From a virus: a stretch of DNA of 21,960 nt. Both the position numbers and the translations under genes were made by a program. This document shows positions 583 to 21,301 of the stretch, piece after piece (position 1 is the stretch's first letter; every line of letters starts with the position of its first letter). Location of the stretch: positions 1 through 21,960 of the IMG/VR virus record IMGVR_UViG_3300004805_000038; one strand, written 5' to 3'. The notes below the pieces were generated by a model. That model was given only the letters and a program-made list of their open reading frames with translations. It was not told the origin of the DNA and made no database searches.

Positions 583-716
583 AATTGTATTGTTTTAATG
601 TTTTATGTTGTAATAATATATTAGATACAATGCGTTTATCTGTATCTATATAGAATGCAGATTGAGAGAAGAGACTATGAAGAAACAAAACTTTCGGATT
701 TTAGGTTTAAGTAGAG

Positions 717-1202: not shown

Positions 1203-1231
1203 TTTACACTTATTGAGAAGTATGCTACAAT
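1203..1231 (+). promoter_or_regulatory. Main late promoter candidate
   Basis: TTTACA (-35, five of six bases), a 17-base spacer, an extended TG one base before the -10, and TACAAT (-10, five of six bases) make this the best complete promoter in the window. Transcription would begin near 1238, about 150 bases upstream of the small terminase gene. The transcript would pass through the terminator at 1291-1351. Confidence 0.7.
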
Positions 1232-1279
1232 GAAATTACATAATAGTTATTTATGCTATTCAGGGAAGCTTAGCAATAA

Positions 1280-1327
1280 ATGATCAATCAAGAGACTATC
1301 AAGAAGCAAGTTAAAAGGGTTTTTTAA
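1280..1327 (+). CDS. Possible 15-aa leader peptide
   Basis: A 15-codon frame (M-I-N-Q-E-T-I-K-K-Q-V-K-R-V-F) starts 42 bases after the predicted late transcription start. It stops inside the descending arm of the terminator's inner stem. CAGGG lies upstream (1261-1265), as it does before the capsid and 8179 genes, although here the gap to the ATG is 14 bases. Ribosomes translating this frame would open the terminator hairpin, as in attenuation. There is no run of one amino acid to act as a nutrient sensor, and so short a frame can arise by chance. Confidence 0.25.
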   Translation: MINQETIKKQVKRVF

Positions 1328-1351
1328 CTGTCTGAATGATGGTCTTTTTTT
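1291..1351 (+). terminator. Factor-independent terminator in the late leader
   Basis: The outer stem GACTATCA (1294-1301) pairs with TGATGGTC (1337-1344), with one G-U pair. It can extend three pairs into AGA/TTT. An inner stem GTTAAAA/TTTTAAC (1310-1316 and 1322-1328) has a five-base loop. Seven T residues follow (1345-1351), then ATTTT. It lies 40 bases before the small terminase gene and 60 bases after the best promoter. The late operon must therefore be expressed by read-through or antitermination. Confidence 0.75.
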
Positions 1352-1390
1352 ATTTTAGTTAATAGAAATAATCGTGTTAGGTTTATAAAT

Positions 1391-1690
1391 ATGGCTGGTA
1401 CTAAAGGAAACAGAAATTCAGTCGGCAATAAGGGTGGAAAATCACTTAACGATAGAAAACTCGCCGCGAAAGTAAGAACCTTGGCATTAACAGAGATTGC
1501 GAAGGTTTTAATGGCACCTCAAGATAATCCAGATCTATATAAAGGAGTATTACTCAGGCTTGCTGGAACAGTTTTGCCTAGACTTAATGAACACACTGGA
1601 GAAGACGGAGAGAGTTTAGTGATAACTATTAGTAAAGAAATAGCAGAAAAGAATGAAACTACACAAGACACAAGCGATAGTAGCAACTGA
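1391..1690 (+). CDS. terS: Terminase small subunit
   Basis: This 99-residue protein is the likely DNA-recognition subunit of the packaging motor. It would bind the genome's packaging site and bring it to the large subunit. The N-terminus (GNRNSVGNKGGKSLNDRKLAAKV) is the Gly/Asn/Lys-rich segment common at the start of small terminases. A helical core (VRTLALTEIAKVLM, LYKGVLLRLAGTVLP) and an acidic C-terminus follow. It is short for the family, but position and overlap support the call: the large-subunit gene starts 38 bases before this gene ends. The start has no Shine-Dalgarno sequence and follows an A/T-rich leader. It is the first gene downstream of the leader terminator. Confidence 0.8.
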   Translation: MAGTKGNRNSVGNKGGKSLNDRKLAAKVRTLALTEIAKVLMAPQDNPDLYKGVLLRLAGTVLPRLNEHTGEDGESLVITISKEIAEKNETTQDTSDSSN

Positions 1691-2852
1691 TAGACACCGT
1701 TTCAGGGTGTTGTGTAATGGTAGGCGTTGGGGAAAGACAACACTTGCTATTGAGGAGATTAAAGGTAAAGCTCTTTATAAAAAGACAAGGATTGCGTATA
1801 TTGCACCAACGTTTCAGCAGGCAAGAGATATTGCTTGGCAAATGTTGGTGAAAGAACTTGGGCCAATAGCAAAAAAGATAAATGAATCTCGTTTGGAATT
1901 AGAGGTTCATAATAATGTTGGAAGCACAAGTATAATCCAATTACGTGGTTGGGAAGCAATTGAGACACTTCGCGGTCAATCATTTGACTTCATCGTAATA
2001 GATGAGGTTGCAATGATGAGAAACTTCTGGCTTAATTGGCAAGAAGTTATTCGCCCTACATTGACAGACCGCAAAGGTGAAGTGATGTTTATATCAACTC
2101 CTAAAGGTTTTAATCACTTTTATGATTTATATAATTTCGAAGCGAAAGATGAAGATTTTAAGAGTTTTCATTTTACTAGTTACGACAATCCTCTTATTCC
2201 TAGTGATGAAATAGATAAAGCCAGAGTAGAACTACCGGAAGATAGATTTAGTCAGGAGTACATGGCAGACTTTAGAAAGACCGAAGGATTAGTATATAAA
2301 GAGTTTGATCGTACTCAGCATGTTACAGACATGCAGCCAAAGACAGTGATAGATACCCTTGCAGGAATCGACTGGGGATATACCAATCCAGCAAGTTCAC
2401 ACAGAATTAGAATAGATGCAGATAGAAGATACTATATAGATGATGAATTTTATCAAGCGAATAAAACTACTGAGCAGATTGTTGAATCAGTGAAACTAAA
2501 GAAAGCAACGAAAGTATATCCTGATCCTGCTGAACCAGATAGAAATGAAGTAGCGAATAGAATGGGACTCAATGTGATGCAGGTTTCGAAAGACATTAGG
2601 GCAGGCATAGATACGGTGAGAATGCTTCTCAAACAAGGAAGACTATTCATTCACCCTGATTGTCTAAACCTCATAATGGAATTAGAAACTTATCATTATC
2701 CTGATCGTAAGCCTGGACAAAATGAATATGAGAATCCAGTGAAAGAAAACGATCATTGTTTAGATGAGATAAGATATGTTTTGCATAACATTGAACATAA
2801 TCAAGTACAAGATATTTCTGGTCAATTCCCTAAGGAAGAGTTGACTTGGTAA
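1653..2852 (+). CDS. terL: Terminase large subunit
   Basis: This is the ATPase and nuclease of the head-filling motor. Walker A is GRRWGKTT (23-30), Walker B is FIVIDEV (113-119) and the coupling motif is ISTP (147-150). The RNase H-like nuclease begins with GIDWGYTNP; its acidic residues are likely D240, D291 (YPDPAEPD) and D371 (DHCLDEIRY). At 399 residues it is at the short end of the family because the N-terminus begins only 22 residues before Walker A. All catalytic motifs are intact. The ATG lies inside the small-subunit gene with no good ribosome site, which suggests translational coupling. The portal gene starts six bases after the stop. Confidence 0.96.
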   Translation: MKLHKTQAIVATDRHRFRVLCNGRRWGKTTLAIEEIKGKALYKKTRIAYIAPTFQQARDIAWQMLVKELGPIAKKINESRLELEVHNNVGSTSIIQLRGWEAIETLRGQSFDFIVIDEVAMMRNFWLNWQEVIRPTLTDRKGEVMFISTPKGFNHFYDLYNFEAKDEDFKSFHFTSYDNPLIPSDEIDKARVELPEDRFSQEYMADFRKTEGLVYKEFDRTQHVTDMQPKTVIDTLAGIDWGYTNPASSHRIRIDADRRYYIDDEFYQANKTTEQIVESVKLKKATKVYPDPAEPDRNEVANRMGLNVMQVSKDIRAGIDTVRMLLKQGRLFIHPDCLNLIMELETYHYPDRKPGQNEYENPVKENDHCLDEIRYVLHNIEHNQVQDISGQFPKEELTW

Positions 2853-5820: not shown

Positions 5821-6062
5821 CAGATGAAATAAAAGATGCTGAGATTTTGGAAGTTCATAAGGAAGGCGGTGATGATTCTTTGTTTGTTGCAGGTATTGTT
5901 AAAGAAGGAGAAAACAAAGGACAATACATTGCAATTCAAGTAAGAAACATGATGCAACTAAATCCAGTTGAACCAATTTTTGCACAATATCCTGATATGG
6001 AATTCCTTATTGTTGGAAAGTCTGAAGAAATTGTGAAAAAGTATTTTCAAAAATTAATATAG
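5817..6062 (+). CDS. Hypothetical 81-aa protein
   Basis: This is an acidic 81-residue protein of unknown function. Its pattern is alternating strands and one terminal helix (IVKEGENKGQYIAIQVRNMM, MEFLIVGKSEEIVKKYFQKL), consistent with a small alpha/beta domain. Its ATG overlaps the TGA of the zinc-binding-type gene by four bases, so the two are probably translated together. Its stop codon is followed at once by the strong extended -10 promoter at 6063, so it is the last gene before the scaffold/capsid unit. Confidence 0.6.
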   Translation: MTDEIKDAEILEVHKEGGDDSLFVAGIVKEGENKGQYIAIQVRNMMQLNPVEPIFAQYPDMEFLIVGKSEEIVKKYFQKLI

Positions 6063-6076
6063 TGTGATATAATATT
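6063..6076 (+). promoter_or_regulatory. Extended -10 promoter of the scaffold/capsid unit
   Basis: TGTGATATAATATT holds a perfect TGnTATAAT. The identical 14 bases occur at 18063-18076. No good -35 is present. Transcription would start near 6080, and the first bases fold into a small hairpin (GTG-TGG at 6084-6089 with CCA-CAC at 6094-6100, one bulged base). The scaffold gene begins about 60 bases downstream. An extra promoter here would raise capsid protein output over that of terminase and portal. Confidence 0.65.
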
Positions 6077-17857: not shown

Positions 17858-18067
17858 ATGATGAAAAAAGAAGTAAAAAGCATCGGAATTTATAAACCTA
17901 TGGAAACAGTGTCATTTTCAATAGGCTCTAAAGTAAGCATAGGCGGAGTAGAAACAGAAAACACTGTTGAAAAAATTATAGTTGGACCATTTAGAAAATC
18001 TGAAGTGTATATGTCTGGAGGTATGATTTTGGTATTCGAAGGATTTCCTATCAGTTATGAATTGTGA
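17858..18067 (+). CDS. Hypothetical 69-aa protein
   Basis: This small protein looks beta-rich: VSFSIGSKVSIGGVE, then KIIVGPFRKSEVYMSGGMIL, a pattern of short strands with Gly turns, like a small barrel. Starts at 17858 or 17861 (adjacent ATGs) are equally possible. There are no Cys residues or membrane segments. Its stop codon TGA (18065-18067) lies inside the next promoter, so transcription of the following unit begins just as this gene ends. Function is unknown; a virion or assembly role is suggested only by its neighbours. Confidence 0.55.
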   Translation: MMKKEVKSIGIYKPMETVSFSIGSKVSIGGVETENTVEKIIVGPFRKSEVYMSGGMILVFEGFPISYEL

Positions 18068-18076
18068 TATAATATT
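18063..18076 (+). promoter_or_regulatory. Extended -10 promoter, exact copy of that at 6063
   Basis: TGTGATATAATATT is identical to 6063-6076. No clear -35 is present. A transcript starting near 18080 would begin with a possible stem ATGTAA/TTACAT. It then passes the micro-ORF at 18117 and the double hairpin at 18161-18221, and enters the 366-residue tail gene. Fourteen identical bases in two intergenic junctions are unlikely by chance. Confidence 0.65.
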
Positions 18077-18116: not shown

Positions 18117-18155
18117 ATGGCGAAGAAGAAAAAAGGCGGAAAAAAGGGTTGCTAA
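18117..18155 (+). CDS. Possible 12-aa Lys/Gly micro-ORF
   Basis: ATG GCG starts a 12-codon frame (M-A-K-K-K-K-G-G-K-K-G-C) that ends at TAA 18155, between a strong promoter and a double hairpin. Its composition (six Lys, three Gly, one terminal Cys) is far from random AT-rich sequence and recalls the Lys-rich end of the 5035-5290 reading. It might be a virion-packaged basic peptide or a leader peptide. No Shine-Dalgarno sequence is visible and the frame is very short, so coding is uncertain. Confidence 0.35.
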   Translation: MAKKKKGGKKGC

Positions 18156-18160
18156 ATACA

Positions 18161-18221
18161 ATAATAAGAGCTTCGTGCTCTTATTATGTAGCACTATAAC
18201 CCTGAGATAGTGCTACATAAT
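18161..18221 (+). promoter_or_regulatory. Two overlapping perfect hairpins before a tail gene
   Basis: Hairpin A has arms ATAATAAGAGC (18161-18171) and GCTCTTATTAT (18177-18187): 11 perfect pairs with loop TTCGT. Hairpin B has arms ATTATGTAGCACTAT (18183-18197) and ATAGTGCTACATAAT (18207-18221): 15 perfect pairs with a nine-base loop. They share bases 18183-18187, so the lowest five pairs of one exclude those of the other. No T-tract follows either, so an ordinary terminator is unlikely. The pair may act as a switch, an RNA-stability element or a pausing site in the 5' leader of the gene at 18242. Confidence 0.7.
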
Positions 18222-20812: not shown

Positions 20813-21301
20813 ATGGAATGGCTCACTAATAAATGGCAAGAATTATTTAGTAATTTTTGGATAAAATCAGCCGCTTTAATACCTGCTTCTATGATTGCAA
20901 TAGAACTCAGAGAAAAAGTAATGCTAATAACTTTTGCAGTAATAATCACTATCGACTGTATTTTTGGGGCAATGGTTGCAATATACTGCGATAATAATTT
21001 CGATTTCTCTGTTTTAGGAAAGAAGTTTAGCAAGAAATTCTTATTGTATTTCTTCACATTGTTTGCTTCTTTTTTGCTTTCTAACGCATACGATTTTATG
21101 GAGTGGTGGTTTTACACTATCGGAACAATTATTTTGTTCTCTGAGTTCGGATCATTGATGGCAAAAGCTGAGAAATTAGGACTTCCTATAAAAAATGAGT
21201 ACATAAATGCGATAAATAAGAAAATTGATGCTGGCATTAGGTTATTTTTAAATATCCAATGTGACGTAGTTCCACCAAATAAAGAGGAGGATCAAAAATG
21301 A
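20813..21301 (+). CDS. Holin
   Basis: This 162-residue membrane protein has the form of a phage holin of the toxin-secretion/phage-lysis type. Hydrophobic segments lie at about 36-58 (VMLITFAVIITIDCIFGAMV), 76-91 (FLLYFFTLFASFLLSN) and 98-114 (WWFYTIGTIILFSEFG). An amphipathic N-terminus and a charged, cytoplasmic-looking C-terminus flank them. Holins form the membrane lesions that release the endolysin and set lysis time. The call fits its place just ahead of a C39-like hydrolase. CAGGATC lies ten bases before the ATG but is not a proper Shine-Dalgarno sequence. The stop overlaps the next start as ATGA. Confidence 0.8.
   Translation: MEWLTNKWQELFSNFWIKSAALIPASMIAIELREKVMLITFAVIITIDCIFGAMVAIYCDNNFDFSVLGKKFSKKFLLYFFTLFASFLLSNAYDFMEWWFYTIGTIILFSEFGSLMAKAEKLGLPIKNEYINAINKKIDAGIRLFLNIQCDVVPPNKEEDQK

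Follow-up and report, generated by a model that had tools for sequence, protein, structure and literature searches.

How are the packaging genes of a virus expressed when the promoter ahead of them is followed at once by a terminator? This arrangement lies near the left end of a partial virus record of 21,960 bases (the window). The initial annotation took it as a sign that the late operon is controlled by antitermination. Antitermination is also our best reading of the locus, with a constitutively leaky terminator as its main rival. Specifically, we lean toward the view that the terminator close to the promoter acts as a gate on the packaging and portal genes, with read-through most likely provided by a phage factor other than a Q protein.

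Promoter and terminator ahead of the terminase genes

The window contains a recognizable large terminase gene (TerL; Table 1). The gene before it, a putative small terminase (TerS), returned no match in family searches. Portal, scaffold, capsid, and tail genes are also encoded, as is the beginning of what may be a lysis enzyme. Matches to the terminase reached only about 33% among isolated phages, compared with as much as 71% among viral contigs from uncultured sources. Its bacterial matches were three metagenome-assembled genome contigs; one of these was labeled Candidatus Nomurabacteria, which hints at a Patescibacteria host without proof. The promoter and terminator region had no DNA similarity to isolated phages.

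Table 1. Coordinates of features in the window and of loop-complementary modules in its relatives
Feature	Coordinates	Strand	Basis or remark
Sigma70-type promoter, TTTACA-17-TACAAT	1203-1231	+	Sequence and scans, activity predicted; -35 at 1203-1208, 17-base spacer, -10 at 1226-1231, extended -10 TATGC immediately upstream of the -10
First transcribed stretch	1238-1289	+	Predicted transcription start at ~1238, from the -10
15-codon leader frame MINQETIKKQVKRVF	ATG 1280, stop 1325-1327	+	Overlaps the terminator
Terminator hairpin	1290-1348	+	Arms 1290-1316 and 1322-1348
T-tract TTTTTTTATTTT	1345-1356	+	Sequence; expected RNA 3' end at ~1350
20-base element AAGAGACTATCAAGAAGCAA, direct-repeat copy 1	1290-1309	+	Forms the 5' arm of the terminator
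20-base element, copy 2	669-688	+	2 mismatches; 8 bases ahead of a hairpin at 697-765
TerS, putative small terminase	1391-1690	+	Position and relatives; first gene past the terminator
TerL, large terminase	1653-2852	+	PHROG 2, E = 1.4e-49
Internal promoter-like site, TGTGATATAAT at 6063-6073	6044-6073	+	Scans; no terminator after it
Second internal promoter-like site, TGTGATATAAT at 18063-18073	18045-18073	+	No terminator
Holin-like protein	20813-21301		Pfam PF05105
Loop-complementary module, L275-L274/G001	5247	-	
Loop-complementary module, L280/G007	9840	+	
Loop-complementary module, L307/G004	7726	+	
Loop-complementary module, L301/G009	17136	-	
Loop-complementary module, L283/G003	31281	-	

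The promoter had been called the best in the window, a claim that is defensible and uncertain. It is the only site to score 12 when the extended -10 is counted. By its hexamers (10/12) it is level with 14 other sites, and two further sites have a perfect -10. The terminator hairpin has a predicted energy of -19.9 to -20.5 kcal/mol (z = -3.1 against shuffles) and runs into seven Ts (1345-1351), an A, and four more Ts. When energy and T-tail were considered together, it was the top plus-strand terminator in the window, and a simple pattern scan missed it because its stem has interior loops. The hairpin begins 58 bases after the -10 and ends 42 bases before TerS. In an 808-base noncoding region (583-1390) shuffled 200 times, we recovered an equally good promoter in 0.5% of shuffles, an equally good terminator in 1%, and both together in none. 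The proposed layout, with the terminator within 60 bases of the promoter and about 40 bases from the terminase genes, was thus borne out, as was the presence of the leader frame. A search of viral contigs with an exact 17-mer from the terminator arm returned 48 matches, which we took as chance.

On this layout, host RNA polymerase would start at ~1238, directed by a sigma70 promoter close to consensus, and transcription would mostly stop within the T-tract. The resulting RNA would extend to ~1351 and be ~114 bases long, in line with the roughly 115 bases first predicted. It is predicted to fold as a small hairpin (1246-1284, -9.6 kcal/mol) within the first transcribed stretch, followed by the terminator. 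Polymerase that read through would transcribe TerS, TerL, portal, and the genes up to ~6062. Read most simply, the promoter would be constitutive and silenced by its own terminator until a phage factor permits read-through.

How far such gating could reach depends on the two internal promoter-like sites. Both have a perfect -10 and a poor -35, and they share 14 identical bases (TGTGATATAATATT at 6063-6076 and 18063-18076). By its sequence, the first could drive transcription of scaffold, capsid, and tail genes. Since neither site is followed by a terminator, the strictly gated part would run only from 1391 to ~6062, and read-through need not be a condition for making capsid and tail. The "late operon" of the initial annotation is therefore too broad. 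Terminator-free internal promoters were also found in one relative (G002). They would equally suit a constitutive attenuator, in which a leaky terminator keeps terminase and portal below capsid with no regulator, while capsid and tail genes are transcribed from the internal sites. Such a stoichiometry would be sensible for terminase and portal. We regard this explanation as a serious rival, although an unlikely one; it leaves unaccounted for both the recurrence of hairpin-foot elements in one and the same genome and the constant small-protein neighbor described below.

Recurrence of the module in relatives

We gathered loci around relatives of the terminase and obtained a nonredundant set of 113, which together with the window made 114 contigs. 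These were scanned under strict settings for strong plus-strand terminators outside genes and for a strong promoter within 130 bases. A strong promoter lay upstream of 15 of the 45 strong noncoding terminators, the window being among the 15, and downstream of none (0/45). Chance alone would give 2.4% on each side, or about one apiece. The order of terminator then promoter, absent at the strict threshold, appeared in some cases at looser ones. About a quarter of the contigs have the module, and many of the contigs are fragments. It is missing from several close relatives (L001, L002, L004, L006, and L010).

The position of the module differs among the loci that carry it. It precedes the small terminase in L003, L009, L005, L020, L057, and L035, with small genes between them in L020. 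In L030, L054, L058, L067, L074, L241, L252, and L039, it lies 3' of the large terminase, ahead of portal or a neighboring gene, and the start codon comes only 4 to 12 bases past the stem. This spacing leaves no room for a promoter, so expression of the gene would require read-through of the T-run.

A hairpin immediately before a start codon, as in this group of relatives, might instead stabilize the 5' end, act in RNase processing, or move the ribosome site near the start codon, without causing termination. We consider this improbable. The stems of the listed modules are followed by a T-run, and the hairpin is 40 to 290 bases from the gene in the window, L003, L009, L020, and L005. Across 17 records and loci, a Shine-Dalgarno sequence was found at 10.7% of genes compared with 12.2% in a control stretch, and a T-run ahead of the ATG was found in 9% of genes, module genes included. 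The lack of Shine-Dalgarno use and the rarity of T-runs before start codons weaken translation-related readings in general, and on these numbers we rejected both Shine-Dalgarno bridging and U-rich translation start.

A small-RNA gene would likewise take the form of a promoter and a terminator with no gene between them. The ~114-base RNA could then be the product itself, a phage small RNA, with the late genes transcribed from elsewhere. Several results make this highly improbable. Leader sequences are not conserved among relatives, short elements excepted, and Rfam returned no match for the window or eight relatives. A strict scan found no strong promoter between the terminator and TerS, and the module in relatives usually heads an operon.

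The leader could also act in cis, with its translation or an alternative RNA structure deciding termination. The leader frame of the window overlaps the terminator, and in six relatives (G001, G003, G004, G005, G007, and G009) the leader contains 8 to 11 bases complementary to those of the terminator loop. This complementarity looks like a conserved competing structure; in the three relatives tested, a complement of at least 8 bases arose in 0.6% of shuffles. We nevertheless give cis-acting attenuation very little credence. The longest complement between leader and hairpin in the window is 6 bases (P = 0.63), no better than chance, which speaks against the purely cis-acting RNA switch that had been suggested there. 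The suggested control by the 15-codon frame fared no better: most relatives have no ATG in the corresponding stretch, and Shine-Dalgarno sequences are not used. Moreover, the loop-complementary class often stands ahead of HNH or NUMOD-like genes. The pairing sequence is different in each of the loop-complementary modules listed in Table 1.

Hairpin-foot element, small protein, and known systems

Short elements recur at the foot of the hairpin. In the 33 kb of G003, AC[AG]GAAG[CT]AC occurs three times, each time (3/3) at the hairpin foot of a module, and these modules head different operons. Both modules of G033 have AGAAGAACT in common. Among genomes encoding the small protein described below, GAAGNAC was present in 9 of 14 modules (0.3 expected), and CGGAG was present in 6 of 10 other modules (0.34 expected); these statistics, like those of the G003 motif, are optimistic, the motifs having been spotted by eye before they were counted. 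GAAGNAC ends at the earliest one base ahead of the hairpin and at the latest seven bases into it; the interval separating it from the promoter or -10 is more variable. Spacing that is fixed to the hairpin and looser to the promoter suggests that recognition takes place on RNA and not on promoter DNA. Exact GAAGNAC and CGGAG are both absent from the window. Instead, the 5' arm of its terminator begins with a 20-base element whose second copy, upstream, is identical at 18 of 20 positions; a repeat as good occurred in 1 of 300 shuffles.

Modules located 3' of the large terminase usually have a small open reading frame immediately ahead of them. In nine relatives, a profile search identified a protein of 50 to 65 residues encoded directly upstream of the module, one of the nine being a weak match. 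Each of the nine open reading frames is succeeded by a -10 site and a short leader, then by a hairpin and its T-run. When viral contigs were searched with the small protein alone, using a four-row alignment as the query, we recovered two contigs, each with the module: L270, which was new and independent, and one nearly identical to L030. There is one copy of the gene per whole record. AlphaFold predicted a helix-strand-strand fold (mean pLDDT of 78.5), and no match to the protein was found in PHROG, Pfam, NCBIfam, PDB sequences, folds, or isolated phages. Different small open reading frames, outside the profile, precede the modules of L003/L009 and L020/L057. Neither the small protein nor these other small frames were found in the window, which is a partial record.

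We infer termination, regulated read-through and its timing, the factor, and the factor's target from these sequence patterns. The factor, most likely phage encoded and not a Q, would recognize an element in the nascent RNA at the base of the terminator hairpin, on its 5' side. In the window, its target is probably the repeated 20-base element at 1290-1309. The candidate for the factor, in about ten relatives, is the small protein encoded directly upstream of the module. Tentatively, and with more doubt than confidence, we propose a new antitermination system in which this alpha-beta-beta protein binds purine-rich RNA of the GAAGNAC type at the hairpin foot and switches on several late operons together. 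If true, it would represent a new family of antitermination proteins and suggest that this form of late control arose more than once. The module could also provide a sequence signature for locating the late switch where a phage is represented by metagenomic sequence alone.

In lambdoid phages, late genes are controlled by a promoter-near terminator through Q proteins. The locus resembles, at the sequence level, the PR'-tR' region of lambda, 21, and 82 on which Q acts: a strong promoter, a short terminated RNA, and a terminator directly ahead of the late genes. A small gene also lies immediately upstream of the module in relatives, as Q does. The initial annotation saw no Q homolog, and profile searches of the relatives' records agree. 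PF06530 had no match over the cutoff in 32 records and PF03589 had none in 23, the partial window record being included only in the latter set. Because Q families were absent from the searched records, we did not file the module under Q-type control. Q uses promoter DNA elements and a -10-like pause site (PMC6606751), whereas the shared element here keeps to the hairpin. A -10-like pause element was present in 4 of 20 modules compared with 1.6 expected, which is not clearly above chance; in the window it reads CATAAT (1239-1244).

A second precedent for bypass of a promoter-near terminator is AlpA of Pseudomonas aeruginosa, which lets polymerase bypass an intrinsic terminator just past its target promoter and recognizes a DNA site between the -35 and -10 (PMC7969949). 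In contrast, we noticed no conserved site between the -35 and -10 of the modules, whose promoters, judged by eye, seemed to have nothing conserved beyond the extended -10. The put RNA of HK022 is ~70 bases long, comprises two stem-loops, and acts on later terminators without any protein. The window leader shares with it only a predicted fold of two consecutive stem-loops near the 5' end. Whereas put suppresses terminators further downstream (PMC9378689), the second stem-loop of the window is the terminator itself. By layout alone, the candidate element, which overlaps the 5' side of the terminator, is also like the recognition elements of RNA-binding antiterminators. LicT/SacY (RAT) and ANTAR proteins recognize elements that overlap the terminator on its 5' side. 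A search of 23 records for the NusG-family protein that NusG/LoaP-type antitermination would require gave no match over the cutoff.

Late control by a promoter-proximal terminator is already known, and its use without Q in this lineage would be a variant. Searches of the literature, incomplete in coverage, turned up no account of this kind of control in these viruses. What the module adds is a similar late-control layout in a distant uncultured lineage where searches for Q came up empty, and candidates for both the factor and its target.

Other structured regions and the divergent upstream region

Downstream of the terminator in L003 (1323-1400) and L009 (447-520), a hairpin lies between CCGGCG and ACGGC. 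Its stem bases differ between the two loci yet still pair, which suggests a structured leader ahead of the small terminase. Elsewhere in the window, a 59-base intergenic hairpin (18145-18203, -22 kcal/mol) has a T-run on one strand only, the minus, which carries no gene there.

The genes upstream of the window module are on the minus strand. One 71-residue open reading frame on that strand (20-235) had the look of a small winged helix by eye and no family match above the cutoff, and a small open reading frame at 355-582 found no relative when used as a search query. The noncoding stretch at 640-1060 has strong predicted structure on both strands (z = -6.2 on the minus strand and -4.4 on the plus strand) and contains a near-perfect inverted repeat (940-992). 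It had no Rfam match; the leftward genes may have a structured leader here, or a noncoding RNA. Finally, a leftward promoter-like site (TGTACA-17-CATGCTATTAT) is followed by a weak terminator (1044-1017), both on the minus strand within 1017-1140. As predicted from sequence, this leftward pair is the mirror image of the module, and the region is divergent.
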